From: Mya arenaria
Taxonomy: Eukaryota > Mollusca > Bivalvia > Myida > Myidae
Assembly: GCF_026914265.1 (NCBI RefSeq)
Contig: NC_069132.1
Coordinates: 37,503,152-37,567,151 of the forward strand
Direction: 5' to 3'
Length of the DNA: 64,000 nt
Below the pieces are notes generated by a model. That model was not told the DNA's origin. It did not search any database and worked only from the letters and a program-made list of their open reading frames with translations. Positions 7,470 through 43,080 of the stretch are shown one piece after another (the first letter of the stretch is position 1; every line of letters starts with the position of its first letter). The translations under genes were made by a program, and so were the position numbers.

Positions 7470-8103
7470 TGCACCAGTCAATTGTAACCACGCCCCCCTC
7501 TCCCAGGTCCAGGGAACAACGTGGACTTTGACTTTTGGTTCAGCCAAGCCCGGGTAAAATCCCCGCACTGTGGAACAAACTGTAGGTAAAATCCCACCTT
7601 AATGCCCTCACACCCCAGGGACCCTAGGTAAGGCCCATTCCCAGCTATATTTGGCGCAAAGACAAAACCACCGCCTTCATCAGACACTGTGGGGCCACCT
7701 GGAAGGTAAAAGCATGGCCCATTTCCCAGACTGTCCCCGGGTATACCTGTAGTGTGTGTGGGTTAGAACCAGCCCCCCGGTTAGCTCAGTTGGTTAGAGC
7801 GCCGTGCTAGTGTTCCGGCGGTCATGGGTGCGAGCCCCACACCGGGGGCACTTATCTTCCCAGGATTACTTTACTGGTGGCAGCGGTAAACAGCAGAAGT
7901 GCCTCCGTAGGCCTTAAAGGTTAATGGGGGGAGAATTGTAGTGTGTGGGTTAGAACCAGCTGCCTGGTTAGCTCAGTTGGTATGGGCGCCGTGCTAGTGT
8001 TCCGGCGGTCATGGGTTCCAGACCCACATGGGGCGTACTTTTCCTCCCAGGATTACTTTATACCCCCAGACTTGAGGGGTCGTGGTTACAATTGGCTGGT
8101 GCA
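7470..8103. mobile_element. TIR element with TAA duplication (PIF/Harbinger-like), split by a nested SINE-like dimer
   Basis: The ends TGCACCAGTCAATTGTAACC and the inverse of TGCACCAGCCAATTGTAACC are flanked by TAA on both sides (7467-7469 and 8104-8106). Comparison with the 280-bp relative at 45917-46196 shows that the block at about 7747-8059 is extra, an insertion nested inside. Without it the element would be about 320 bp. A 3-bp TAA duplication is typical of PIF/Harbinger, so the superfamily is inferred. It has no transposase. Confidence 0.85.
7747..8059 (+). mobile_element. tRNA-derived SINE-like insertion, tandem dimer
   Basis: Two tRNA-like units lie about 183 bp apart (7780-7851 and 7963-8036). 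Each has an A-box-like GGTTAGCTCAGTTGG and a degenerate B-box (GGTGCGAGCCC, GGTTCCAGACC). Each is preceded by TAGTGTGTGGGTTAGAACCAG. The block is bracketed by TATACC (about 7742-7747 and 8060-8065) at the point where it interrupts the TIR element, consistent with a target duplication. The anticodon arm does not fold into a 5+7+5 arm, so these are not working tRNA genes. Confidence 0.65.
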
Positions 8104-8106
8104 TAA

Positions 8107-8732
8107 CTTGGGTGGATTTCAGAGAGGCAAGCAATTTTACCATGGGAAGAACATCGCGATAATCATGTATTTTATCCCTCTGATTAAGCAAGGAAAGTGG
8201 GTCATACTCGTATATTGCTAATATTTGACACCACTCACCAGACTCTATTTTTTTAAATATTTATACAGAAGCTATGTACGTATAACATCAATAACAACAC
8301 AAATTTACATATGATATTTGAGTGTGCAGCATATATAATCCGCCCTAAATATTCGGATGGTATAAACAATAAAGCTCAATACCTCTTTCTTCAATAAGAA
8401 AATGGAAAAATTGTTTTTGTCGAAAATGATTTTTTTTTCTGCAAAGAACTTTTGCACCCCGGCTTGTGTCTAATTATTCATTATGTATGGTGCACAAAAC
8501 GGGAACCACAGAGCTCACAGTCTACAGACGCTTGCAGGGGAGATAACTGATTGAGATTTTTAGAAAATTCGGTTAAAATTGCACCACACTTTTTTTCCAT
8601 GGAAAACGAAAGTAGATTTTTAGAAATTCTATGTTTAGAAATCAAGCAACATTTTGCTGAAAATTGATTATGAAAAGCGTCAACGTAATTTGACTATTCA
8701 GGTGTGCATTAAGAACTTCTAACTGCTCGGAA
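8107..8732 (+). promoter_or_regulatory. Upstream region of the KptA-fusion gene
   Basis: This AT-rich region must contain the promoter and 5' UTR of the downstream gene, whose ATG is at 8733. No clear TATA box or initiator could be assigned. An ATTTTTAGAAA(A/T)TTC motif appears twice (about 8557 and 8613). Confidence 0.3.
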
Positions 8733-11700
8733 ATGTCTGGTAAGTTGTTTTCTCTCAATGTTTATATATCTTGTTTTGACACTATTCTCCATAGTATATT
8801 GCCTTTTATTGGTACGTTTATCAATTTATAATATTGAGATATAGTCATTCTAAAATGCCGTCCATGTTTTTTTTAATGTTGTCCAGGCTACAACTACTAT
8901 GTACTTAAAGGAAATCTAAGCAACACTCTTTAGCCATGAGAGTTTGATAAGAAATCGAATCAAATGAACAATATTTCGATCTATCATATTTATCAAATTT
9001 CGCAAGATCTGGGAGAATTATCCTGTTTAATTGGTCAAGACAGGTGTTTGAGCGAATGTGACATGGCAGATATTTATGAATCATAGGTCAAAGAGGGCGT
9101 GGAAATGGGAATTATCAAGGACAGGGTGGACACCAAAACCAAGGTGGATGCTGGCAGAACGATGGATATAATAATTATAATGACAGCCAGGGTTACGGAT
9201 ATAAACATCGGGGTCGAGGACAATTTCCTCCGCCATTAATGTCTCCAAGCATTCACATGGCTAGAGGGAGAGGTGTAAATACTGGATGGGGAGGTCCTGC
9301 CCCACCTGTCAACAATCCACAGGAACTTGAGTTCAGAAGACCCAATAATCCTCCTATCCATGGACAAGATCAAAGAAAAATTTCTGGCCCCTGGGATGGA
9401 CAAGGAAATAATGAATTGGGCAATAGATCTACTGGAAACCAGCAACAAGGGCAGGGTAATGGTAATGATGTTCATAGGCCTCGAAGCCAGGAGAGGAAAG
9501 AGACACATGATAGCCAAAGAAGTTCATCCAAGGACGGTCAGAACCACAGATCTCGATCTGGTGACAGAAGGCCCTATATCCAGTCCCTAAGCAGGAGTTC
9601 TGGGTCTTCTTCGCAAGATTCCTGGCAAAAGGGTCAGCAGCCTGGAACCCAAGGCAGCTCACACAGGAAGGCCAGGGTATTGATTGAATTATTTAAATTT
9701 CAAGTGATTTAATTATGTACTAAAGTAAGTGGCCTTGTATTGATTGCTTAGTATGTGTATGTCTAGCAGATTTCTCAATTGTTACTATTGAATAAAGTTT
9801 TTCAACTTTTGCTGTTATGATAATATGTGCATAATAAGGTGAATAAAATAATTCTAAAGTGGTCAGATGAATATTTCAGTGAAATGTGTTTGGTATTCAG
9901 CTGTACACACATACATCGTATATAAAAAAATATAGATTACAGTTTCATTTTTTATTTGCATACTTGCACACTTCAACTGTGGTTTGTGCTTTCTTTATGT
10001 CTTATTAAATTAAATAATGCTGGTTTTTGTCCCATAATGTCATTAAATCCTTTGCTTAGCATAAGTAGTAGTTTGGCTTTCTCTGTATTTCAATATAAAC
10101 ATTTTTTTTTTTTCAGAATGATGACGATTTATTTTTCCTTTCAAAGACACTCTCTTCAATCCTTCGGCATAACGCTGAAAAATTTGGTCTTGAGTTAATG
10201 AAAGGTATGTTGTGGTGGAAAGCACAGAGTTGCATATTGATAATGTCCAATGACTCATAATATGTCGAAACAGCTTAGAAAGTGATTGGTATTTATTACT
10301 ATCAAGGGCATTTTTCCAGCTTTTCTCCCTTACAGAAAGTAATTTTCTGTGATTTCAGCAAAGAAAATGCCTATTAAGAAAAAATCATCCGAATTTTTGC
10401 TCGATTTTGTTTTCTAATAATGTTTTGGTTACATGCTGACAAAAACAGTCTATACATTGAAAGTAGATAGAGAAAACATTTTGGAATACTGGTAATTTAA
10501 TTTTTTTTTCATTAAATTTGTAGGATTCCAAGCAATTTTCAACGAATTATACAGATTTTTCAAAAAAGAATATTTAGGGTTGGGGTTTAGAAAATTGATT
10601 GGTCGGATAACCTGAACCAAAACATTAATTTTGTTATGCGTCTTGTTAGTATCTCAACCTGGACAGGTTACACTGATGTTTCATGTATTCTGTGGTATTC
10701 TACTTAATATTAAAACTAAAAGGGAAAACAATTGATGATACCCCCATTAGGACACCTAAACTCATCTCTCTGGACAGGAAAAATGCCCTGGTATATTATA
10801 TCCTACTGGAATTATAAGAAAAGCGGTTTAAGTATTTTCAGTTTAAAAGAGAGCAGCCAATTTTAATATATACAACTGGTAAGATTTTGGTTTGGTCAAA
10901 GTTATTTAAGTAAAAATACTTTGATTTAAATACTTAGGTGGATTCCTGTATGTGGATGACATCTTTCGCAAGGTCTACAAGCTTCGTTCATATACCCTAG
11001 AAGACATACAACATGTTGTAAAAAGTAACGACAAGCAGAGATTCGCCTTAGAACAAGACGACAATGGTCATTGGAAGATCCGAGCCAATCAAGGACACAG
11101 TATACAGGTTCGGATTCCAACAGTGGCAAAGAAATTACCGTATTTCCCCAATTGTAAGACGGGGGGAATTGCTTTAAAAATCGATGATTTTATACAAAAA
11201 TTACCAGATTTCATGGGCAAAGTTAGTGGGTCGTCTTATAAGCGGATCGCTTTATAAGACGGGAAATACGGTAGTATATATATGTATATATCAGTAAGCC
11301 ATGTACTTTTATTAAAGATATTTGCTGGGCTTGTTCAAATTGATAAATGTATTCAAGCCAGATTTTTTTTATATATTACTTCCTGGTTCAACAAATTTGA
11401 ACAAGTCCTGATATGCTATAATGTACATGTATATATATATATATATTGGTATATTGCACAGCATGATTTGTTCAAATTTGTTGAACCAGGAAGCAATATA
11501 AAATTCTGGTTTGATCCAGATGTCCTATTTCGATGACTATTTCCATCGACTATTTCAATGCCTGTGTTTGAAGACATGTTTATTTTAGTTAATTTTATTT
11601 TATTTAAGGTATTCAACCCATAAGTAAGATACCTGGCCCCCAATATCACTAGAATACACAAGTCAAATCTCAACTCATTTTACCACATGAAAGCCTAATA

Positions 11701-14700
11701 TGATTTAAGATCTTGCATGTTTTTATACATTTTGAAAACGTCTTTTCTCATGGAATGTGTTGATAAAAAGATTTTGTCATTTTTTTCAAAGAAACTTAAT
11801 TCCAGGGTAAAAAATAGATTTGAGTTATTGTTTAAAAAAAACACAAAAAATTGTACTCAAATACATTTTTTGCTGTAGAATATGATTCCCTTGAAATATT
11901 GACCAATTGCATGAATCAAAATATTACATGACAGAGTGCCTTTTCAAAGCGATAAAATCATTATCATATTATTTTTAATAACTTTTGAAGCTATGTGGTA
12001 AAATGAGTTGAGATTGAGATTTGACTAAAGTTTTTTCGTGATATTGGGGCCTGCATGGCTACCCCAAGTTATACATTTGTATTTATTTGTGAAAGTATTA
12101 TAATTAAACTCATTGAGAAATAAAAAAAAAAAATGTTAAGCATGTAAGCTCAAACTAAGTATGTACCTAGTACTAGGTACATGTACTTTTTGCCATGGAA
12201 TTGGCTTTTTTAAGGTATCTGATGTAATAAGCTTTTCGTTTAAATTTGCCATTGACCCTATAGTAATGTTAAATTTTGATGGGTGGAAACCCCTTATAAT
12301 TTTGGTATCAATAGAAGGTCGGTATTGCTTGCTGATTATTTTCATGCTAAATAAATTACAAAAATATGCTGTTAGATAATATTTCTGCAGTTGAAATTTC
12401 AGTTGTTAATTTGAACTGAATTCAGACATGAAATGACCTATTTTGCAATCTTGCAAGGCTAAAAAAGTTAGCCAGCAGTGATTTTTTTTGTGCAATTTAC
12501 TGCCTTCTAATGGCTGTTTCCCCTTGCGAAAAAATGTCCATTTTTCCCCAAAAAACATTTTTTTCCCAATTTGATAAATGCACATTATGTTAGTGAATAA
12601 AAAAACAATGAATTTCTTGAAAAATAAACAGAATCTTGGCAAGATTAACTCTTTTACAGCATAAAGTATGCATAAAAAGGTGAAAGCATGTTTATTTGCC
12701 ATTATATTTGCTATTTTGATCTGATTGTGTATTTTTCCCATTTTGCAAGGCACAGGCGGTAAAAATATTTCCCCAAAAAAATCACTGGCTAGTGAACTCA
12801 GTTTAAGTTTAACAATTTCTTCCTCTTCTCAAGAAACCATTTCAATTGATACCAAATAAAAATGGGGGCCCAGGCATCAAAATATCGGCTAATAATCCAT
12901 GATATATAGATATCGTATACCTTAACTTTCAAATAGAATAGAAATATAGTTCAAAACTGTATTTTCTCAAAGTCTCATAACTATAATGATGCATTGGTTA
13001 TTTTTTTCATAGAAATTCATTCTCTGTAACCAAATCTAAAATTCAAATGGTATTCTGTATACATGTACTAACATTATTTTGTGACATTTACAGTTACAAT
13101 AATGTTAAGGTGAATAGGTGAACAGGACTCATTTTTGCAGACATCACATAAATGTATAAGAAACATGTAAATAACATGACAATTTGATTTGTTAACATTT
13201 ATGATTATTCTGTTAAAAATACATATTGTACACTTCTACATGTTAACATCAAGCGTTCCTTTTTTGTTGGTGTATTAAGGTAGAAGAATTGGACCTGCAA
13301 CCGATAAAATCGCCAGATGAAATCAGCATGGTCATTCACGGCACTTACTATAAGAATTGGGATATGATCAAGAAAACGGTAAGTTGTTTTCTTACAAAAT
13401 AAATGTACACTTAAAAACTGTGTAGTACATTGGACATATAATTATGTTCTTTATACTTGCATGTTTCAATGCTACAATTGTGTAATAATGAACATATAGC
13501 AACACTATGGTAAGTGAGAGCAAGTTAGCTAAAAGTTTTCTTTTTTACTAATCCAAAGGCTCTAATATATAATATATTTATAAACAGAAAAAAGTGGGCC
13601 CTATTTCAATAACATATTAAGAGTGCTCAGGAATGCCCTTTGACAATGTATATTTCTATATTTTCTGTTTCAACAACGTCCAGGTTACACCTTGAAATTT
13701 ACAATATTAAGCCTGGGTCTTTATTGAGACAGGGTTCTGATATGCACTAAAACTGCTGTTCAAAACTGAATGCAAAATCTACATGTTGTTGTCAGTGCAG
13801 ACATGAATATTTACCGCTGTTGCAGATATTCATCTTTAATAAGGTAAAATCTATGGGTGAAAGTGGTCTCGTGGTCAGGTGTTTTTCTAACCCAATTTGT
13901 TGTGGGTTGTTCTCTTTGCCTCTTGACACATTTTGGTTGTCTGGTTAGCCCTCTTGTTTATCAGTAGTCAACAGGGTTTCCATTCCTGGGCTATGCACAT
14001 GTGAGTTTGGTTTGTGGTAACCAACCCAGACAAGTTGGTTTCCCTGGGTACTCCGTTTTCACCCTCAATACAAGACAAGACCACACCCTCGCATAACACT
14101 GTGCCAACGAGAGTGATTAATATTATGTTTTTATAACTTGGGGCAATAGGACTGGTTTGGTAAAGGACACAAGACATGAAATAACTTCACCTTAGGATCT
14201 AGAAAACTTCACAATGTATAACTATTAACTTAATTTATATCTGCAGGGCTTGAGGCGAATGAACAGAAATCACATCCACTTTGCTGCAGGCCTGCCAGGG
14301 CAGGGAGGTGTGATCAGTGGTTAGTATGCTGTTGTTTAAAGATAGTTTTTTTTCCCACCTCAGATAAGTAGATCCAAATATTTGGCCATGCTGGAAATTC
14401 TTATCCTGCCCACGGGCAAAGATAAAACAAGTACCAATATGAAACTCCTTTTTTATTGTCATCAAACAATTACCTTCCTTGTTGCAGACTGTTGTCCGTA
14501 GCATCATGGAAACCTTGTGATGATGCAATATTTAAATTCTAAAATAAATATTTCTTGCTTCAAATGGCATCATAAAAAAAAATTCACGCTGCATTCAAGT
14601 TTTAATGCTGTACTATCCTCAGAACTATTTAAAGTACGATTTGACTATTTACATAACCTGAATCACTGCGCGCACATCCATGACAATCACGAATGCTCAC

Positions 14701-17700
14701 ATATCTATATGCAAATTATTTTCACAATTCACAAAAGAGTTCCAGCAAACAAATACATTTTAACTGAGATGGGAGCAAAAAGCACCTACCATATCCGCTC
14801 GTGTAAGATAGGTTCATCCCAACCCTTGCGCAGCGTGTTCTGCGGAAACGAGGTTTACTGTTTTACACCCAACGCTCGGGTTGGGATGAACCTATCTTAC
14901 ACTCTCGGTCATGGAAGATTCTTATAGTCTCATTCAGTTGGCTCTCCATTCAATGTTTGTTAAATGATTAATATATTTTGGATGAGGCCTACAAAAGATG
15001 CTATCCATTTTTGGCTCTAAGCTCGACATTTTTTTCTCCGCCATTGAAAACGCTCATACTGCAGGTATATGAATGTGGACACTGTTTCGGGTTACCCGAC
15101 CCTACCTAATAAAAAATGTCTTAACACCATTAACCCAATTCAGTGGATTTTTGTGTGTAATGTACTGCCTCTTAAAGTCTGTTTCCCCTTGCGAAAGTGT
15201 TCACTTTTCCCTAAAATTCATGATATTTTCCCAATTGATAAAAACAGAACCTGTGAATGATAAAAAAAAGCAATTAATTTCTTAAAAAAATTAAATCTTG
15301 GGAAGTCAAGCACTTTAATAGCATAATGAATGCATAAAAAACATGTATATTTGCTATTTTAACATGACTTTGTATTCATCCCAGAGTTGAAAAAAATTCC
15401 AATTTGGAAGGAACAGGCGGTGAAAATATTTCCAAAAAATATCACTGCATTTTTTTTCAAACATTAACTGTCATTACCCCATATTTTTTGACAAAATAAA
15501 GCTCCATAACAAACGCCAATTATGAATGACAATTGCAAGAATTAGTTCAACTTTCGTTTTAATGACTACAGTGTGTGTATACCATGTGAAAAATTACGTC
15601 ATATAATGGTAAGTTGGAAGGCAGCATTTTACTTAATATAAAAACCAAAATCAAAGATAACTTTCCTTTTACTAAACCATTTAAAATAAAACAAAGGGCA
15701 GTCTATGCTGCTTAAAGAGCCCTGCCTTCGTTTTATTACCAAAGTTTGATACGGTAATTAGTTTCATCAAACACCTTGACAAACCTGTTCCCATGTAATG
15801 TTGTGACAGTGCTCCGTCAGACGGCCGTATTGTGAAAAGGTTTGTCAAAGTGTTTTAAGAAACTGAGCTCTCAACCAAACTCTGGTAAAATAACGAAGGC
15901 GGTGTAGACTGCGCTTTGTTTCATTTAAAATGGTGAAGAAATATTGAAGTTATCTTTGTTTAAAGTCTTCATTCAAAGCAAAGTATTGCCTTCCGACATA
16001 GCATTTATGACACAATTTATCATGTGGTATACACACAATGGACTAGTGTGTTTATTAGTGATGAAACGATTATCGAGTACAATCGATTAATCGTTGCTGA
16101 CAATGCTATGTCGGCGACAATCGATTATGGTTGTCCAAAATCGATGTCGCTAGTGTTACTTCCGATAACTACGTATTTTTTTAGTCTTGTCGTCAAAGTC
16201 GAGTAAATGTCAATTTTTCTTTCCGGTCAATTCTCATTGGGTTCATTTTAACAAGAGACTGGTCACTCTCTTACACAAATGCGGTGAATGTAAACACTTT
16301 TGCTTAGAAACTAATAAACTCTCCCAAAATTACAAATTGTTTTAATTGTTTATATATTTCATAAAACCTTCTTCAATTACCTGTCTCTTGGGTGTTGTGG
16401 GTCCGGTCTTACCTGCAAATACCGGGGATCCCGGCTAGATGCATTCAGTTTTTAAACCTTTTTTGGTATCGTTTGTAATTGACTAATTTACTTTTTGTGT
16501 GAAAGTTTTATGAAATTAGGATATTCTAATGAATGTTCAATATAACAGGTTATTGAATGTTAAGCTGGTTCACAAATATTTAATATGCTTTTACATGGAC
16601 AAAATGCTAAGATGGCTTACTTGATGCGGTGTGTATCATTTGTTGAATTATTAAGTATGTGTTGTGTTGTTATTTTTTTCGTTAAGTTATTTTAGACAGA
16701 AAAAGGTTATTGAATTTTACTTACTGTTCCAAAATGCATGACTATAGCATCACATGTACTGATTCCAGGTTTAACCATTTAAATGATCATGATGATACTA
16801 TGTATAAAGAATGTATTAATTACTGAGATTATGAACTTTCGATTATTGTCTGATAGTAAATCGAAATGCTTGGTCCAATTCGATTCGATTATCGATAGCA
16901 AATAGAGTCCGATTTTCAAACACTAGTGTTTATATATTAATGCATTTTGATGTCTTTACAGGAATGAGGACATCGTGTGAAGTTATCATTGGCCTGGACT
17001 TGAAGAAAGCTATGGAAGGTACTTAGTATTATTTTGTCAGAATATTTTATAAATCAAAGAATGTTAACAAGAGATTTTTGATGAAATATAATATAAAAAC
17101 ATAATTTTATTTACTCTCTCAGATAAAAAGTTTATATTTTGGTAATGGGAATAGGGCCAAATTTTAGCCCTTAATTGTTTAGAAAAAGATATTGTATACC
17201 ACAATCACAAATGTGATCAGACAGATATATGCTCAGGCCAAGCATTATAATCTTACTTGGTATCTACAATGTGAACTTAAATTGCAAATCATTTCTTATA
17301 TTGTATGTAGACTAAGTATCAATTTCAAATAAAACAATTTTAAATTTTACCAAAGACTACATTTGAGAATAAAATTCTAATAAATGTTTGAAATTTTTGT
17401 AGAGGGTATTCCATTTTTTCGGTCGGCAAATAATGTGATCTTGTCGCCAGGCAACAAGGATGGGATCATCTATCCCTGCTATTTCCAGGGTGTCAAGGAC
17501 AGAGCGCAAGGTAGATTGTTTTAATTCTTAGTAAAAATATTATTTTTAAACTAGCATCCAGATCTTTGTGTCACCTCTGTCGCATAGCAGACACAGAGGG
17601 TTTCTTGGTCCATTGGTGTCATAGTTGTCCCATTTTTTGTTTCTGATAAAAAAATATTGAATGACTCATTGAAGAATCCTTAAGGTTTGTATTCACATAA

Positions 17701-20700
17701 GTTTAATCATTATTATTCTATTGAGCAAAAGTACATACTACTGTAACTGAACTTAGCATTTGAAGGTTTTAGTGCATTGAATAATCATTTGCCCAAATAC
17801 ACCAGGTGAGACTCATCTATAGATTGTCAATTGACTTCACCCATCAAACAAAGCCAACTGCCACCACCAGCAATTGAGCATATTCTTTCTTGTTTCAATG
17901 TGGAACTAACTACTAAGGAGCATGCTCATATACCCTCAAAGTTTCCATACATCTACAGCTTGCATTACTTTTGGGGCTGTACAAATTCACTGTCATTGCA
18001 AAAAGGCACTATAATTGTGCTTTTATTTATTATATTAAAATCACACCGTCAGTCCTGGCTGTAACATGTATCTGGTACATAAAGACTACCTGTTGTGTGC
18101 AAGACCCTCGATCCTACCACAAAGTTCAAGGTTAAACTTGGAGTTTAATTTATTATGAAATTCTGCATATAGGCAAATAATGTATACCGGTAGTTAGTCT
18201 TGTCCAGGATGTAACTTTGTCATGCAGAGAGGGATGTTACTTGGCACTTGTTTTTGGTACATAAAGATGAAATATCGCATGCAAGACCTTGCATACATTT
18301 TTAATATTCTGTAGTTTACAAATATCAATGCGCTATTTTCAAACATACCGGATACATAAAACAATTGCTCATGATTGTTAATTTTAAAAGCTAAAAGGAA
18401 ACCAGTGCATATTTTTTACTTTAACAATGGAAACTACAAATACTACAAATACTTATTTTTTTAATCCTCAATGTCTGTAAGATCAAAAGTACCATCCAGT
18501 AACGGCTACAATTATCACAATGCTAATTGTCATTCATTCATTCAATTGAGCAAAATGAGATTTTATTTTGTCAATAAATAAGAGCACATGGTTTTATAAT
18601 CCAATGCAGGGGTTTCATTTTGTTTCTATAGTAGCCGGATATTTGCTGGAGTTGGAGGGATATGGGGTTTCAGGTTTCAAAGCAACAGTCAAAAGAAGAA
18701 AATGGATTACCTCAGGGCTCACACTCAGACTTGAAAAGTGTTTGAAGTTTAGGTTGCTAGATGAAAAGTCCATTAATGAGCAAAAAAACTCCTGAATTTT
18801 TATTTTGCCTTGAAAAGTGCTTGTATTTTTTTGAATACCGTAGTCCTCAAATCTCATTGTTCTTCCTCAAATGGAAAGTCTTTAATAGGGTCCATTTTTA
18901 CAAAAAGTTTGGTTCTTGTGGATGCTTTGCTAGTAACTCTTTGCTATTACAATGTTTTGGTGTGCAATTTGTGACAGTTAGGGTATGGTTCCCATGGTTT
19001 TAGACTAGTGGTACAAATTACATGAACACCTGTTCAGTCTATTTCTGTTTCCTTGTTCACTTTTGCTGTGAATGTCTGGTTGACCACGAAAATAAACAAA
19101 GCGGTGTGTGAACATTGCATTAAAGTTATTGACATCAGTTCAATGAGTAATGTAAAGTTGGAAAAACTTTAAGGAACAACCCAACGTTTGACAGGTCACA
19201 ATGTCACAAATATGCTAAATTTCATAGCTTGCTATTAATGATACAGATAGTCATTAGAAATATATGTTTATATTTGTTATTTAAGATAGTCCTTGAAAAT
19301 CAAATAAAGGTCCTTGAAAATCGAATAAAGGTCCTTTAAATCGCCTTGAAAACTCTCTTTTTTTGCCAGTCTGGCTGTATGAACCCTGTGCTTTGACCAT
19401 CTAAGAAAACAATCTCCAACAAGTGACCAGGCTTAGCTAAGCTCTCATTCACGTTGTGTTGATTACACAATCATTGTCTCAAACTGCAAGACATTTTACC
19501 TCAGATCCCTAATGCTGAGTTTCTATTTCAGGCTTCCGAATACCATTCGACGCAAAGATTGGCTTGGGAATAAGAGAAGACCCAGCGAAAACTGGGGAAG
19601 GCAAGGCTGGGAAGAAGAAAGGGAAGAGTAATAAGAGACAGAGTGATGATATGGCATCAGCATCAGAAGGTACGAAATCCGATGAGACTAAAAAGCAAAA
19701 ATCAACGAAATCAACTGAATCTCCTAAGAATACTCAGAAAGAAACTCGATACAATAAGGAAGAACCGAAAAATGTTCAAAGCACTAGTGGTAAATGGCGG
19801 TTATTGGCTAATAAACCATTCATATTGAAAAAATGATGATTGAATGAGAGGGAACTATTGCATTGCAGCATTGTGAACATAATACATTGTTATCCACTTT
19901 GAAACGGTGATTTTTTATTTTTTTGTGATTCATAAATGTGTTACATTTTAATATGCCCTTATGTAGAATGGGAAGTATAATAGTTTTACCTGCAGTTTAC
20001 GAGCGGGCCTGTGTCATCCTGTATGTTGTCCGCTCAATAACCTTAAGAAATCATCACTACATCAGAATGTGTATTTTGCATAATATCTTGGGCAAGTTTG
20101 ATAACCAGCCATCAAACCGGTCTTGTCAGATCAATAATTATAGAAAATTTTGTCCAATCATCACCAAATGAGGTCAGAATGTGTTTGGGCATAATATCTC
20201 TGACAAGTTTGATTACCATATTGATTGAATCACTCAAGAGTTATCACCCTTTAATTATAGAAATTACCTAAAATTGGTCTTGCCCAACCAATAATTTTAG
20301 AAGCATGTGTCCAATCACCAGCTGTATAGCTTTTAATAAGTCATTCAAGATAAATCCCCTTTAATTATAGAAAAAACCTAAAAATGGTCTTGTCTGATCA
20401 ATAACTTAAGAGGCCTTAGTCCAACTATCACTGAAGATCAATAAAACTATCAATCAAAAGTGACTGAAGAGTGATCACCCTTTAATCATAGAAATTATCT
20501 TAAATCAATCTTGTCCGATCAATTATTTCAGAAGCCTTTGTCCATCACCAAATTTGGTCAGAATGTGTATGGGCAGAATATCTCAGTTAGGTTTAATTAC
20601 CAGCCATGTCAACTCAGAGTTATGACCCTTAATGAACTCGCAAAAACTGTGTCCTCTCTCTAAATTTGGCTTAACCAACTACATCTTATCATCAAACTTG

Positions 20701-23700
20701 GTATATTTTGCAGGGCTTTTTCTATAGTACCCACGGGTCCGATAGTACCGCGGGTCCGACTATTGGACCCATTCCCAAAGCAAAATATAAGATATTTTTC
20801 CCAATCTTAAGAAAAAAATCCCATTTTTTAGAAATTATTTTTACCTGTACTGGTTCATTTTAACATCCTAATAAATTATGTGATGTGAAGTTTTTTTGGT
20901 AATTGAACTCAGAAATCATTGATTTTCATCACATTCACAGAATATTATCTGTCATAATTTATTGCAATAGATATTTACTCCCCAAGGATTGATATTTCAG
21001 CCATTGTGGGTCTTTTAAAGGGAAAATAAACTAATATTAAATCATTTCCTAATTCACAGGAGACTAGACAGCTTTTTCTTTTCACTGTAAAATTTCACAA
21101 TTTCCGCATTTTCACGACGCAAAATTTCCCAAAATGTCTAGGGTCTTTTTCCCAAAATGGGCAGAAAAAGCCCTGTTTTGTGACAGTTGACTCTCTTGTT
21201 TAGCTTCTAAAACCCATGTTTTTTGTTAATTGATGAAAAATAATGTTTTAAATTAATATTTTATCATTTTCATGTTATTTCTGTAAATATATCATGTTGT
21301 TGTTTTCTTGACAATTTGCAATTTTCTGTTATTGATGTGTCATTTTTTTTGTAATAAAAGTCAGAATTAATTCATGTTTGTTGTCATTTTTAGACACCCA
21401 ACCATCCAATGAAATTGGTCATGAAAATTCGCCCACTAATGATGATGAATCCAGTACCATGGTTAAAGATAACGACATGCAGCCTGATGTTCAGACAAAG
21501 AGTGAAGATGTCCCTGTACCACCTGCCGAGGTTAAAGCAAATGACATTCAGCCCGATACTGTGGCAAAGAGTCAAGACGTGACCGTTACACCTACCACGG
21601 TTAAAGCTGATGTTCAGTCTGATATTCAGACAAATAGGCAAGATGTTACCATAACACCTTCAGCATCTCAGATTCCTGCGGAAAAATTAGTATGGAACGA
21701 ACCGGCCCTAATAGATGAAGCTGTTAAATCGCAAAAGTTTGTGAAAGAAGTTTTACTCGAGGGTTCCCATCCAAGTCACATGGTTGTTGTTTGTTGCGGA
21801 GAGAAATTGGGAAATGAGGACTCAATGGTTCGCTTGATTGCCGTCTTTGTACAACCTCGCATTATTGTTTATCCTTTATACGATGACAACAAGGGGATTG
21901 TTAAGGATGGCGAGCTGGATAAACTGCTGAATACAAAAGATATTACTAAGGTATGGTGTTCATTTTCAACACTGTAAAAGTGTTTTTACTCTTGCAGATC
22001 TGTAACATGAAATCATACTGTTTCATCATACAGTAGCTTGTTTAAGTTTCACCAGTGTTGAATGTTTGCAAATTTTGACATTAATAATAAGCATGTTGAA
22101 TTTAAAACCTATTGAAATACTTGCTAGTTAATGATGATATATCTACTGAGCAGCAGAGTAAACCTTGCAATATTGGCTAAACCCAAAAACAAGCTCGTGA
22201 AATTAAAATAATCAACAGTATTGAGCTTTTTTGTACATATTTTGCTTTTTGTACATATTTTGCTTTTTATAAACATGTCAAAGTTTTGAGTTAGCACCGT
22301 GATAAAATTATGATGACTAGCAAAAAAACAAAAACCCTAATGCAGTTAAAGCATCTAAAATAATATGTATCTTCTTGGTCAATGAGTTTTCGTCACCTTT
22401 GTATAATGTGCCAACATTTTTGTTTACACCAAGTGATATCATGTTGAATAACTTGACAAATTTTTATTACCTTGTAGGTTTTCCACAACATCCGCGAAGT
22501 GTCAATGAGCCTTATGATGGAGTTTGATGTTCTGCTGGAGGGAACACCGATATGGGACATAAAGGTACCTTTGTGTTATATGGGTTTACTTAATTTCTAG
22601 CAATATTGGACATACAGGTATCGTTGTGTTATATTAGCCATCTAAAATTGTGGCAATATGGGACATACTGGTACTATAATGTTGTACAAGCCATCTAAAA
22701 TTGTGGCAATATGGGACATACAGGTGCCTTTGTATTCTAAGAGCCATCTAAAATTGTGGCAATATGGGACATAAAGGTGCCTTTGTATTCTAAGAGCCAT
22801 CTAAAATTGTGACAATATGGGACATAAAGGTGCCTTTGTATTCTAAGAGCCATCTAAAATTGTGGCAATATGGGACATAAAGGTGCCTTTGTATTCTAAG
22901 AGCCATCTAAAATTGTGGCAATATGGGACATACAGGTGCCTTTGTATTCTATGAGCCATCTAAAATTGTGGCAATATGGGATATTCTGGTACTTATATGT
23001 TGTACAAGCCATCTAAAATATGGGACATGTAAGGTGCCTTCATATTCTACGAGCTGTCTAAAACTGTGGCAATATGGGACATAAAGGTGCCTCCATTTGC
23101 TTTGAGCCATCTAATAAAGTGGTAATATGGGACATAAAGGTGCCTTCACATTCTATGAGCCATTTCTATGAGCCATTTAAAATAGTGGCAATATGGGACA
23201 TAAAGGTGCCTTCACATTCTATAAGCCATTTCTATGAGCCATTTAAAATAGTGGCAATATGGGACATAAAGGTGCCTTCATATTCTATGAGCCATTTAAA
23301 ATAGTGGCAATATGGGACATAAAGGTGCCTTCATATTCTATGAGCCATTTAAAATAGTGGCAATATGGGACATAAAGGTGCCTTCACATTCTATAAGCCA
23401 TTTCTATGAGCCATTTAAAATAGTGGCAATATGGGACATTAAGGTGCCTTCATATTCTATGAGCCATTTAAAATTGTGGCAGTATGGGACATAAAGGTGC
23501 CTTCATATTCTATGAGCCATTTAAAATAGTGGCAATATGGGACATAAAGGTGCCATCACATTCTATGAGCCATTTAAAATAGTGCCAATATGGGACATAA
23601 AGGTGCCTTCATATTCTATGAGCCATTTAGAATTGTGGCAATATGGGACATAAAGGTGCCTTCATATTTAACGAGCCATCTAAAATAGTAGCAATATGGG

Positions 23701-25826
23701 ACATAAAGGTGCCTTCATATTCTATGAGCCATCTAAAATTATGGCAATATGGGACATACAGGTACCTTCATCTATGATCAATCTAAAAGTTATGGGAAGC
23801 GTGAGAATATTGTAACTAGTAATAGTCATACTTAACTGCATGTGAATACAGCCAAGGTTTAGGTTAATGCTGTCTTTGAATGCTGGTTCCAATATAACAT
23901 CTTATTTGATTATAATAATTTACAGTCTATTAAAAAATATGCAATAAATGTTTCTGATTGAATAAAAGAGGCACTACTCAATTTGACAGGATCTGCTGTG
24001 GTATAACATTATGGTTTAAATGCCTTATCTATACCAAATTTCACAGGACAGAGTTATTGTGATCATCTCTTCTAAAGTTTGACTGTAAAGGTCAAAGCAG
24101 ACATATAGTGGAGTAAGCTTTATCTTGGATTATTTAAGGAATGAATTGGGGGTTGATGTCATTATCAGGCTATGAACGCAATTGGGCTGGTCAAAGTGTG
24201 TGGAGTCCGCAATTCATTTCTTATATTTACACCAATAATTCATTATTTCATTCAAGAATTGTTAAAAAAATTCTTTATTTTAAGAACCTTTCAGTAATCC
24301 TTTCCTACACATTCTGTAAATAGAACGACCCGACAGTAACCGGAAACATTTTTTTAAATGACGTTACAATAATGCGGGAAAAGATCACCACCTGAAATCA
24401 CTTTTAAACGTAAAATTGAAACACTTCATGCAACAATACGTTTAAAATATAATAAATTAACACTTTCTAAATGTTGATTTATATTTTACGGGACCTGCTG
24501 ACACAATACAAACATTAACAAGATCAATAGTTACTATGTATATTGTTATGCAATGAATTGCGATCCGGAGATGTTGCCTTCATCGATTGATAAACGCAGT
24601 TGCCGAAAGGCAGTTCATTTAAGGAATGGAAGTTGTGGTGTAAATATTTATTGAATTTCCCACTATAACCAGCATTGGAACTTCAAGAAATTGGCCTCTG
24701 AATACTTACAATTTTTACAATGGCATGTCAAAAGCAGTTTGGTTAAGTATTCAAAAATATTATAATTGAATTATAGAATAAAACAATAATTGCATGTCAC
24801 ACTTGAATGGCCAATTGCTGTGATTTCTCTGACCTTTAAAAGGTCATATATTCAGAACCGCTTAAGGGATTGACATGAAAATTTTAACTCATCAAGAATA
24901 AATCTTTTAATTTCAATCGTGATCATAGAAAAACTACTTTTTCACTCGTGGCGAAGCCACTCGTGGCAAAGCCACTCGTTAAAATGTTTTTCTAAAATTC
25001 TCGTGAAATAAAATACGATCTTACACTAAAATAAACAAATATCCTCTATTTGATAATGCACTGTTATAGCAGATTCATTGAAAACAAAACTTTTTTAACA
25101 CCCTTAAACCTTGGCTTCAATAAACAAACTGTTTATTTGCTTTAGGCCTTATATAAATTGATTTTTTTTATTCAAGATGATTACGGACTCAGCAACATTG
25201 CCAGATATTGACTATGAACGCCTAAAGGAAACTTACAATTACAAGCCCAAGATGATGAAAAAGTGGGCCACTGAAAACGAGACTATCGGTAAGCAGCTTG
25301 ATGGGCCGGATGTTCCTGCGGAAGTAATGAAATCTATCATTGAGAGGGGAAAACTTATTGATGACCTGTACAGAGTTTCGGAAAGGTTTGTACCTGTATA
25401 CAGTACTAAGTTTTACTTAACTTAACAATTAAAGAAGCAGCCTTTCTGCATCTAGCTTTTGCCAATATAATAGGTTATGAAGCAATGAAGAATTTTTAAG
25501 CTATCAGACCAAAAGACACACTAATAAACTAAACCGCAACTGTAAATTGTATAGGAATACCCAATTCCATATTTATATTATCTGTTTGCTGATTCAGTAA
25601 ATTGAAGGCTGAACAAAAGAAGGCGATTAAGAAGAAAGTCTATGCTGCTATTAAGCCAGAAGAGAAACAAAAGACCCTTCTTGAAAAGTTTGAAAAACTT
25701 AAAACGGAACGCAAGGAGAAAGAAAAGGCAAAGAAATTGGAAACTCCACCTGAAAAAGCACCTACAAAACAGAAGCAGCCGCAGCAACCGGGGAAGGGGA
25801 AAGGAAAGGGGAAAAATAAGAAATGA
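8733..25826 (+). CDS. TRPT1: KptA/TRPT1 tRNA 2'-phosphotransferase fused to a degenerate EXD1/RNase D-like domain
   Basis: Thirteen coding exons: 8733-8739, 9087-9676, 10117-10204, 10938-11107, 13280-13378, 14247-14319, 16962-17018, 17403-17510, 19532-19789, 21394-21950, 22478-22564, 25177-25385, 25598-25826. Every junction is GT-AG and phase-consistent, giving 843 residues. Residues 1-199 are RG/Q/S-rich. Residues about 204-410 are the KptA domain, with the expected catalytic tetrad in LRH (R216, H217), IRANQGHS (R277) and FFRSANNVILSPG (R368). KptA uses NAD+ to remove the 2'-phosphate left by tRNA ligation. Residues 411-580 are a K/E/T-rich linker with three 23-residue repeats. Residues 584-765 resemble EXD1/RNase D but lack the acidic catalytic residues (HNIR at 672-675 instead of HDxR). 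The tail is lysine-rich. Vertebrate TRPT1 is much shorter, about 250 residues. Alternative: two genes, the first ending by read-through of the exon 9 donor at a stop at 19834-19836. Confidence 0.82.
11138..11271. mobile_element. Short TIR element (MITE), TA duplication, 30 bp after an exon
   Basis: The ends are CCGTATTTCCC and its near-perfect inverse GGGAAATACGG, flanked by TA on both sides (11136-11137 and 11272-11273). Internal halves share GTCTTATAA-type sequence. It is 134 bp and sits in intron 4 of the KptA-fusion gene, only 30 bp after the exon 4 donor. Confidence 0.8.
11353..11520. mobile_element. Foldback element (imperfect palindrome) with AT-repeat centre
   Basis: The sequence TTCCTGGTTCAACAAATTTG near 11384 recurs inverted near 11465-11495. 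The arms extend outward with mismatches to CCAGA at both ends, and the centre holds a TA dinucleotide run at about 11430-11446. It lies in intron 4 of the KptA-fusion gene. The exact ends and target duplication are unclear. Confidence 0.65.
12161..12182. repeat. Perfect 22-bp palindrome
   Basis: The core TGTACCTAGTACTAGGTACA is self-complementary and extends by one base on each side. It lies in intron 4 of the KptA-fusion gene and may be chance or the remnant of a palindromic element. Confidence 0.6.
12476..12787. mobile_element. TIR element, CAGTGATTTTTTT ends (copy 1 of 3)
   Basis: The ends are CAGTGATTTTTTT and the inverse AAAAAAATCACTG. The flanks GCCAG and GCTAG fit a decayed 5-bp duplication. 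It shares internal sequence (TTTACTGCCTTCTAA, TTTCCCCTTGCGAAA, ACAGGCGGTAAAAATATTT) with copies at 15141-15447 and 33844-33959. It has no coding capacity and lies in an intron of the KptA-fusion gene. Confidence 0.78.
13594..13736. mobile_element. Possible small TIR element
   Basis: GGGCCCTATTTCAATAA at the left roughly matches the inverse of GAACCCTGTCTCAATAA at the right. There is no clear target duplication. Weak call, in intron 5 of the KptA-fusion gene. Confidence 0.35.
13855..14135 (+). mobile_element. SINE, plus orientation (same family as the interrupted copy at 37.8/39.3 kb)
   Basis: A weak tRNA-like head (B-box-like GGGTTTCCATTCC) is followed by a conserved body: GTGAGTTTGGTTTGTGGTAA, then ACAAGTTGGTTTCCCTGGGT, then GACAAGACCACACCCTCG, ending in GAGTGATTAATATTATG. 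The same body is found inverted at 37765-37857 plus 39225-39360, and partly at about 49990-50130. It lies in intron 5 of the KptA-fusion gene. Confidence 0.65.
14801..14902. repeat. Perfect 25-bp inverted repeat with a 52-nt loop
   Basis: The arm at 14801-14825 (GTGTAAGATAGGTTCATCCC plus AACCC) is perfectly complementary to 14878-14902. The loop is GC-richer than the surroundings. Outside the arms no transposon ends are evident. It lies in intron 6 of the KptA-fusion gene, so it could form a hairpin in the pre-mRNA. Confidence 0.95.
15141..15447. mobile_element. TIR element, CAGTG...CACTG ends (copy 2 of 3)
   Basis: Similar in sequence and layout to 12476-12787, with the same TTTCCCCTTGCGAAA and GGAACAGGCGG motifs. 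The left end is slightly altered (CAGTGGATTTTTG). The flanks CAATT and CATTT fit a decayed 5-bp duplication. It lies in intron 6 of the KptA-fusion gene. Confidence 0.72.
15570..16040. mobile_element. Foldback element with ~220-bp arms
   Basis: The left arm starts GTGTGTGTATACCATGTGA and the right arm ends with the inverse (CATGTGGTATACACACAA). The arms stay alignable inwards through AAAGATAACTT, AAAACAAAGNGCAGTCTA, GCCTTCGTT, TTGACAAACC and beyond, leaving a short centre near 15800-15830. It has no coding capacity. It lies in intron 6 of the KptA-fusion gene, directly left of a hAT-type element. Confidence 0.75.
16056..16925. mobile_element. hAT-type non-autonomous element, 8-bp duplication
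   Basis: The ends are TAGTGATGAAACGATTATCG and the inverse of TAGTGTTTGAAAATCGG. Each carries subterminal TCGATTA/ATCGA clusters. The 8-bp duplication GTGTTTAT is exact on both sides (16048-16055 and 16926-16933). It is 870 bp with no transposase frame. The right end lies 28 bp before exon 7 of the KptA-fusion gene, so it reaches the polypyrimidine/branch region. Confidence 0.85.
20040..20700 (+). repeat. Degenerate tandem repeat, period about 130-150 bp
   Basis: Four to five diverged units share GTCAGAATGTGT, GGGCATAATATCT, CAAGTTTGATTACCA, CACCCTTTAATTATAGAAA and TTGTCCGATCAATAATT. It is non-coding and lies in intron 9 of the KptA-fusion gene. Confidence 0.7.
20711..21175. mobile_element. 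TIR element, CAGGGCTTTTTCT ends, 5-bp duplication
   Basis: The left end CAGGGCTTTTTCT matches the inverse of AGAAAAAGCCCTG at the right. TTTTG is duplicated exactly (20706-20710 and 21176-21180). It is 465 bp with no coding capacity, in intron 9. The 5-bp duplication links it in type to the CAGTGATT family in this window. The superfamily is uncertain (hAT-like possible). Confidence 0.75.
22565..23770 (+). repeat. Intronic tandem array derived from the exon 11 splice-donor region
   Basis: About 22 units of 50-66 bp, each containing a version of ATATGGGACATAAAGGTGCC followed by a TATTCTATGAGCCAT(T/C)TAAAAT spacer. The shared core matches the end of exon 11 and the first bases of intron 11 (ATATGGGACATAAAG|GTACCT), so the array seems to have grown from that junction and reproduces a donor-like AAG|GTGCC in almost every unit. 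Frames across the array (for example 23074-23304) follow from the repetition and are not genes. Confidence 0.95.
23771..25176. other. Rest of intron 11 of the KptA-fusion gene
   Basis: AT-rich intron sequence. It holds a short 15-16-bp duplication (CTCGTGGCGAAGCCA and variants, about 24945-24980). No exon with matching phase was recognised. Confidence 0.5.
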
Positions 25827-40923: not shown

Positions 40924-43080
40924 TCGGTTAGTGGCCTTAAGCGGAATAAATCGGCATGCCCTATCGACAATCTATTAAACGAGTTTTTTATTGAAACTAT
41001 AGATATATTGGTTGGTCATTTAACCGATTTGTTTAACGTCGTACTAGATAATGGTCACTTTCCGTTGTCCTGGTCATATGGCTATATTGTCCCAATATAT
41101 AAGAAAGGGGATATGAATGACACCAATAATTACAGGTGCATAACTCTTGTCAGTAACCTGGGCAAAATATTTACTAGTATTTTAACCAAACGAGCTGAAA
41201 CTTGGTTCGAAGACAATAATCTGTTATCAGACGCACAATTTGGGTTTAGAAAAGAGTCCAGCACAGAAGATGCAATATTTGTCCTTCATAATCTTATTGA
41301 AGACACACTTTGTTCGAAGATGAGGTTACCTTGTGCGTTTATTGACCTTAAAAAGGCATTCGATTCTGTTTATAGGAATGCTCTTTGGTATAAGCTTTTT
41401 AATATGGGACTGGACGGGAAAATACTTCGGATATTCAGAGCAATGTACTCTGTGGTCAAATCATGTGTAAAACATTGCAATTCCTTCTCTGACTTTTTCG
41501 ACATTTCAATCGGCCTAAAACAGGGCCTAAATAATTCACCGATATTATTTGCGTTGTTCTTAGAAGACCTGGAATTATATTTACAATCCGATATTGGGAG
41601 TGGATTGTCACTATATGATTTATGTATTATGATATTGCTATTTGCTGATGATATGGTCATATTTGGTAACTCTCCAGAGGATCTACAAACTAGTTTAAAC
41701 AAATTATATGAATACTGTCACACTTGGGGTTTACAAGTTAATACTGTCAAAACTAAAGTGGTAGTATTTCGAAAGAGAGGCCCAACAAGACCCAACGAAA
41801 CTTGGTACTATAATAATGAACCTCTGGAGATAGTCGACGATTTTAATTATTTGGGTGTTGTTTTTAACTATACGGGATCATTTGTTTTAAACAACTAGTA
41901 TGTAGTGGGTAAAGCACTAAAGGCGATGAACGTATTAACCAGAAATATAAGTAAATACGATGTCCCACCTAAAATAGCGTTACAACTATATGATTCCTTT
42001 GTCGGGTCTATTCTTAATTATGCATGTCCGATATGGGGGTTTACGAAGTCCAAGGACCTGGAAAGAATACACCTTAAATATTGTAAATTTCTACTTGGTG
42101 TCAAGCAAACAACGTGCACAGCAGCAGTCTATGGCGAATTAGGACGCTATCCATTATATATTACCCGATATTTAAAAATAATTAAGTACTGGTTCAAGGC
42201 ACAAGATTCCAATAATATATTGCTTACATCCCTTTATCGTAAATCCCTTCAGTCGTGTGAACTTGGACGCAAAAACTGGGCATATAATGTTAAAACATTA
42301 CTAGAGGGATATGGATTTTATGATGTCTGGTGCAACCCATGGAATTATAATGTTAAAACATTTGTTTCGCTATTTAAACAGCGCCTTACTGATACTTATT
42401 TACAGAAGTGGCGCGCGGATATTACTAACAGTACAAAACTTAATACTGTATTTTTACACCTCCATGATAAGTTTGAAATCGCCAGTTATTAAGTTACGTG
42501 TGTCAGCCCATTGTTTACGTATTGAAACCGGAAGATATGGGGCAAATAGACTTCAAAGAAACGAGAGAATATGTTTATTGTGTGATGCACAGGACATTGA
42601 AGACGAATTTCATTTTGTTTTAAGTTGTAGTCGTTATAACGATCTAAGGATACAGTACATTAAACGATATTTTAGAATTAGACCAAATATGTATAAGTTT
42701 ATTGAATTACTCAACTGTTCTTGTAAAACAACTATTGTTAATCTTTGTAAATACTTATTATTTGCTAACGATAGACGTAATACAATCATTAATGATATAA
42801 ATGAGTAACCACCTTTATCACCATTTACATTTCCACTATTTAGCTATTATTTTGTGGAATCAATTACTTTATATTACTATAATTTAGCTTATTGATACAT
42901 TGTTAACATTCTCCATTTAACAATATGATATCTACAGTTTATTGTTTACTCTATTATCTAAAAGTACCATCTTATACACGTTGATCACATATTATGACAT
43001 TTGTCTTTTCTTTGTACGAATACTGTAACGAGATGCTTTATGCATAAGTTGAAATAAAATCTGTTCTGTTCTGTTCTGTT
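40924..43080 (+). mobile_element. LINE (non-LTR retrotransposon), 5'-truncated and broken
   Basis: The reading frame starts within the reverse transcriptase (LKRNKSACPIDNLLNEFF) and shows its motifs in order: IVPIYKKGD...NYRCITLVSNLGKIF, the catalytic CAFIDLKKAFDSV, GLKQGLNNSPILFALFLEDL, FADDMVIFG with the catalytic DD, KTKVVVF and YLGVVF. The C-terminal part has RNERICLLC...EDEFHFVLSC, a zinc-knuckle-like CCHC. The frame is interrupted by a TAG at 41896-41898 and by a frameshift between about 42440 and 42490, so it cannot make the full protein. The 5' half with the endonuclease is absent, the usual outcome of incomplete reverse transcription. The 3' end has AATAAA followed by four CTGTT repeats (43061-43080). 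Confidence 0.93.

Follow-up and report, generated by a model that had tools for sequence, protein, structure and literature searches.

Tpt1 (KptA) transfers the 2'-phosphate of RNA to NAD+, and an Arg-His-Arg-Arg tetrad and an HGT motif have been described for it (PMC6333775). A second activity was reported for human TRPT1, which ADP-ribosylates 5'-monophosphorylated RNA (PMC9458441). According to both sources, animal tRNA splicing leaves no fungal-type junction with a 2'-phosphate (PMC6333775, PMC9458441), and the ablation of Tpt1 in mouse was reportedly without phenotypic consequence (PMC6333775). Fusions of KptA have been described in viruses, where it is joined to a Nudix domain in Bodo saltans virus and is found in some RNA-virus polyproteins (PMC9503650). 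These viral proteins resemble the gene described here in that KptA is linked to another domain, but the partners are different ones, and no ExoHD is mentioned in the accessible portion of that source (PMC9503650).

The best match of known structure for the other half of the gene is Egalitarian (Egl). The exonuclease-like domain of Egl (ExoHD) has positively charged clusters that contact stem-loop RNA, and its putative catalytic residues are dispensable, which offers a mechanistic parallel for an RNA-binding module of the exonuclease type (PMC13186709). Egl also possesses LOTUS-like domains and works together with BicD, whereas the partner domain in our gene is KptA. EXD1 (PDB 5fiq) belongs to the same superfamily. 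It has been counted among the pseudonucleases of animals (PMC8097288), and work on mouse piRNAs describes it as partnering TDRD12 (PMC5481186). In contrast to EXD1, no feature of the piRNA pathway was seen in our gene. The combination of KptA with an ExoHD may be present, unremarked, in automatic annotations.

Our results concern a gene on the forward strand of a 64,000-nucleotide stretch of the Mya arenaria genome, referred to here as the window. Judging from its sequence, the locus is an intact, duplicated and constrained fusion gene that joins two known RNA domains. The reading that we prefer, with a probability of roughly 0.65, is that one two-domain gene encodes a Tpt1-type RNA (phospho)ADP-ribosyltransferase that would be aimed by an RNA-binding pseudo-exonuclease.

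The sequence-only reading had proposed a chain of 13 exons with 12 agreeing junctions at window positions 8733-25826, and scripted splicing bore out its borders, phases and frame. The exons assemble into an intact frame of 843 residues, with a stop codon ending at 25826, and GT...AG borders and phase agreement were found in all 12 introns. Exon 1 (8733-8739) consists of the start codon and four further bases (ATG TCT G) and leaves in phase 1; its flank can be aligned to the paralogue described below (window 8110-9197, 69.6% by blastn). Exon 2 (9087-9676) encodes an N-terminal low-complexity region, rich in RG, QN and S, that covers residues 3-199. The KptA domain starts in exon 3 (10117-10204), which carries the LRH of the tetrad (R216, H217), and continues with the RNA lobe in exon 4 (10938-11107; K261-Q-R263 of the tetrad), the HGT motif of the NAD+ site in exon 5 (13280-13378; H305), the tetrad residue R325 in exon 6 (14247-14319; MNR-NHIH) and the GMR arginine R345 in exon 7 (16962-17018), to end in exon 8 (17403-17510). 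Exon 9 (19532-19789) encodes a Lys/Ser-rich linker and leaves in phase 1. It is followed by intron 9 (19790-21393), which has 1604 nt, against 346 nt for its counterpart in the paralogue. Exon 10 (21394-21950) continues the linker (about residues 484-585) and then enters the Egl/EXD1-like domain, of which it encodes the first half, with the Exo I region lacking its D and E. Exon 11 (22478-22564) is the Exo II block, VFHNIREVSMSLMMEFDVLLEGTPIWDIK, flanked on both sides by phase-0 introns. Exon 12 (25177-25385) encodes the C-terminal half of the domain and ends at a phase-2 intron, and exon 13 (25598-25826) adds a Lys/Glu-rich tail and the stop codon.

The identity of the first half is clear from Pfam, where residues 207-378 match PF01885 with 3e-62 and 210.2 bits (cut-off 26) over positions 6-177 of the 177 in the profile. 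Its best relatives in the PDB are the tRNA 2'-phosphotransferase 1 chains 7yw3 (5.1e-52) and 7yw2 (1.9e-51), which we take to be the human TRPT1 and the mouse chain, with 49% and 48% identity, respectively, over the aligned residues. When residue positions were mapped by alignment and residue spacing, the tetrad R216, H217, R263 and R325, the histidine of HGT (H305) and the arginine of GMR (R345) were all present, and these motifs are shared with the two chains. The predicted KptA/Tpt1 (TRPT1-type) domain is thus full and intact with its essential residues kept, in agreement with the earlier assignment. The two TRPT1 chains are 253 aa and 249 aa long, whereas here the domain is embedded in a protein of 843 residues, which has in addition an N-terminal low-complexity region, a linker, the ExoHD and a tail.

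A complete paralogue is located on the same contig, at C11:37420279-37434565; the window gene (C11:37511884-37528977) lies about 77 kb downstream of it. The exon-by-exon search gave a model of 14 exons and 793 residues with the same domain order and no internal stop, in which all 12 introns of the window gene are matched by introns of equal phase. Exon 9 of the window gene corresponds to two exons of the paralogue (C11:37430173-37430623). This extra intron was set by eye, as was the final exon of the C17 gene described below, and the two are the least certain parts of our models; if the intron is right, the split may reflect the gain or loss of an intron between the duplicates. The paralogue retains the tetrad, HGT and GMR, and has RANQAHS where the other aligned sequences have QGHS. 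The block that can be aligned between the copies, with gaps, runs from about 6006 to 28663 of the window and spans the whole gene, and hence the duplication took the whole gene.

The fused gene is not the only KptA gene of the genome. A search with PF01885 lists three places, namely the two fused copies and C17:26975894. The gene modelled at C17:26975056-26979531 encodes a stand-alone KptA of 194 residues, in which the tetrad is kept, SGFPP replaces the SGMR-type sequence and the GMR arginine is missing. When the genome was queried with the 7yw3 stretch, nine exon-sized matches were obtained. Seven of these, among them the four best, fell in the fused copies and the other two in the C17 gene, which indicates that no KptA sequence found in the genome is closer to that TRPT1 than the fused copies. 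The genome search with the C-terminal domain lists eight places, all of them on C11.

Constraint was estimated between the two copies of this one genome. The dN/dS of the KptA domain was 0.30 with NG86 (bootstrap 95% 0.16-0.59) and 0.40 with YN00, and that of the ExoHD was 0.36 (bootstrap 0.23-0.53) and 0.34, respectively. Higher values were obtained for the linker (NG86 0.50, bootstrap 0.32-0.75; YN00 0.84 and 1.11 for its two parts), the N-terminus (NG86 0.89, bootstrap 0.55-1.63; YN00 1.78) and the tail (YN00 0.87). The NG86 ratios of the exon-9 part of the linker and of the tail (0.18 and 0.13) were set aside, as dS was near saturation in both (2.5 and 1.9). There were 300 bootstraps per region, 216 of them usable for the tail. 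On these estimates, both domains are under purifying selection, and the N-terminus and linker are looser.

Pfam returned nothing convincing for the C-terminus, the only match being Phlebovirus_NSM at 0.35. In single-sequence searches of the PDB, the C-terminus of the window gene found Egalitarian at 0.12, third after flavodoxin (0.055) and queuine transferase (0.076), and that of the paralogue found it at 0.23, fourth after flavodoxin (0.022), cytidylate kinase (0.048) and arylsulfatase (0.16). With a profile of the two copies, Egalitarian ranks first (E 0.0013 among 177,635 PDB sequences, with four listed to E 10). The Egl ExoHD (9uju, 9rvy) is the best profile match, and its Exo I and Exo II blocks are in the same order. 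Three PDB searches, with the window sequence, the paralogue and the two-copy profile, listed Egl and no EXD1 chain at E up to 10, so that the domain was not found to be closer to EXD1 than to other members of the family. The sequence-only reading had proposed an EXD1/RNase D-like domain: the family stands, on profiles and introns, but the match is to Egalitarian instead of EXD1. The RNase D/EXD1 match that it expected for this part came through profiles, whereas Pfam was blank and single sequences gave marginal values.

Scores of 31.2 bits for the window gene and 29.9 for the paralogue were obtained with a profile built from six sequences of the Egl/EXD1 type (C3, C5, C8, two from C13, and Egl), while the top of 10,000 residue shuffles of both query sequences (7,981 reported by HMMER) reached 13.5; hhalign with this profile gave 94.1% and E 1.3e-7 over 75 columns. 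The rows for Egl, C3 and C5 were added after Egl had emerged as a weak match, and these scores are therefore a confirmation and not a blind discovery. A profile of nine C8/C13-type sequences alone gave 13.7 bits for the window gene and 10.2 for the paralogue, which did not rise above the shuffles (top of 2,000, 10.7), and 2.7% in hhalign, so that a clear outcome was reached only with Egl, C3 and C5 in the profile. Over its last third, the domain gives a poor alignment.

Support that is more independent than the profile scores comes from introns shared with two genes of the same genome, on C3 and C5. Both are above the PF01612 cut-off, and the product of the C3 gene matches Egalitarian with 3.9e-27 and EXD1 with 1.5e-6. 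Each has a phase-0 intron right before its VVHDC/VFHNC block, matching the start of window exon 11 (VFHN), and another right after DTQ, matching the end of that exon (WDIK). Past Exo III, both genes have in addition a phase-2 intron, which is placed four codons plus two bases beyond an aromatic residue and resembles the one at the end of window exon 12. The first two correspondences are clear, the third less so because the alignment there is poorer; in the models of the C3 and C5 genes, the exon borders were drawn by eye. No introns interrupt the domain in the C8 and C13 relatives, each of which has a single open frame there, and the intron match thus comes from two genes. Taken together, profiles and introns assign the C-terminal domain, with high probability, to the 3'-5' exonuclease-like domains of the Egalitarian/EXD1 type.

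It could be argued that the weak matches arose by chance and that the C-terminus is a lineage-specific or other alpha/beta domain, as would fit the blank in Pfam and the marginal, mixed matches of the single sequences, headed by flavodoxin. Flavodoxin was also found in NCBIfam (FldB, 0.0095, residues 671-702). This identity, which recurred in the PDB searches, was rejected because the matches span only 32-36 residues, that is, exon 11 plus a few residues beyond. The scores above the shuffles, the first rank of Egl with the two-copy profile and the intron positions and phases common to Egl-type genes leave a domain other than an ExoHD very improbable. As an ExoHD, it might have 3'-5' exonuclease activity and trim RNA ends for later processing by KptA, given that the PF01612 family includes active nucleases and that a DCE motif is kept in the C8 copy of this genome. 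The positions in Exo I and Exo II that we take to be catalytic speak strongly against such activity. Neither of the two Exo I positions has an acidic residue in either copy in any of the alignments made, and the Exo II aspartate is changed to valine in both copies, so that our domain differs from that of Egl in lacking the acidic residues of both motifs. The Exo III region (D with Y or H) aligns poorly and allows no safe placement. The loss of the Exo I and Exo II residues predicts a pseudonuclease, which the domain probably is, as the sequence-only reading had also held.

The question of whether the two halves belong to one gene is centred on the join from 19789 to 21394, which is in phase 1 and completes GAC, as had been claimed; a matching phase at the join alone has a 1-in-3 chance. 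Two adjacent genes would comprise a stand-alone KptA gene ending in intron 9 and an Egl/EXD1-like gene with its start in exon 10 or ahead of it. Read-through from exon 9 does meet a stop at 19834-19836 (nt 45-47 of the intron; ORF 19519-19836), which had been pointed out before, and in-frame ATG codons within exon 10 would permit an internal start. The duplication alone cannot decide between one gene and two and is no proof of a fusion, since the block spans both halves. On the other hand, exon 10 starts at a splice acceptor, donor and acceptor are in the same phase in both copies, and the halves of the paralogue are joined, again in phase 1, across only 346 nt (C11:37430623|37430970). About 1.27 kb of the longer intron of the window gene (approximately 19949-21219) is without a counterpart in the alignment of the copies and includes a dispersed repeat of about 465 nt (approximately 20711-21175; at least 41 matches, with 40 of 4,067 candidates scored). 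With an intact frame and a paralogue of the same order, the proposal that KptA and a second domain reside in one gene is upheld; the predicted architecture is, with little doubt, a single gene, and a pair of neighbours is hardly to be expected. A single gene could still carry its C-terminal part as a decaying passenger, the protein acting as an ordinary Tpt1. The missing acidic residues of Exo I and Exo II and the faster evolution of the linker would be in line with this, but the dN/dS of the ExoHD is near that of KptA in the comparison of the two copies, and these share 84% identity in the exon 11 block. We regard a passenger domain as unlikely, though less so than two genes.

In the reading that we favour, the protein would begin with a low-complexity N-terminus rich in RG and QN, followed by KptA/Tpt1, an extended linker of low complexity, a degenerate ExoHD and finally a basic tail. 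KptA would use NAD+ either to remove an RNA 2'-phosphate or to ADP-ribosylate an RNA 5'-phosphate, while the pseudonuclease would bind RNA, probably structured, or a partner and deliver the substrate to KptA. By analogy with Egalitarian, it is reasonably likely that the pseudonuclease serves KptA in this way, by binding RNA or a partner. A function outside tRNA splicing, as suggested previously, is possible, but it would not be special to the fusion, as animal tRNA splicing lacks the fungal 2'-phosphate junction. The link to piRNAs is weaker than was claimed: it hinges on the domain being EXD1, is not favoured by searches that matched Egalitarian, and becomes one option only.

A natural fusion of KptA with an ExoHD may be a hint to the substrate or partner of animal Tpt1, given that this kind of module binds RNA in Egalitarian and that animal Tpt1 is without the fungal-type splice-junction substrate. 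The hint would be as strong as the conservation of the fusion beyond the one genome covered here. More speculatively, the fusion could be a widespread Tpt1 of molluscs or invertebrates, in which the pseudonuclease selects structured or small RNAs for NAD+-dependent capping, repair or de-phosphorylation. We consider this doubtful; if true, it would reveal a dedicated pathway of RNA-end modification, in germline or antiviral RNA handling, and would answer what animal Tpt1 is for.

Some further features were observed in the genome and around the gene. At C13:42.22-42.31 Mb, RNase D-like (PF01612) open frames are clustered in either orientation, with nine places listed, two of which have a stop inside the match; the cluster gives the impression of a locally expanded set of Egl/EXD1-like genes. 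Intron 11 of the window gene harbours a minisatellite (window 22550-23771), in which the repeat periods include 53 and 66 bp. Its unit includes the 3' end of exon 11 and the adjoining 5' splice site, and 18 matches to ATATGGGACAT[AT][AC]AGGT[AG]CC occur in it, counting the real donor at 22550. The minisatellite is an array of decoy donor sites next to the true one, and related sequence extends over only about 200 nt in the paralogue. Upstream of the gene, by 0.7-1 kb, ARAGORN called two tRNA-Thr(AGT) at window 7775-8036, within a stretch (approximately 7740-8110) that has no match to the paralogue. Rfam gave nothing at gathering scores over 6000-29000, and these calls, thus unconfirmed, are perhaps tRNA-derived repeats. 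Farther downstream, at window 40924-42808, reverse-transcriptase-like open frames were recognised by eye in the ORF list, and they probably represent a retroelement.
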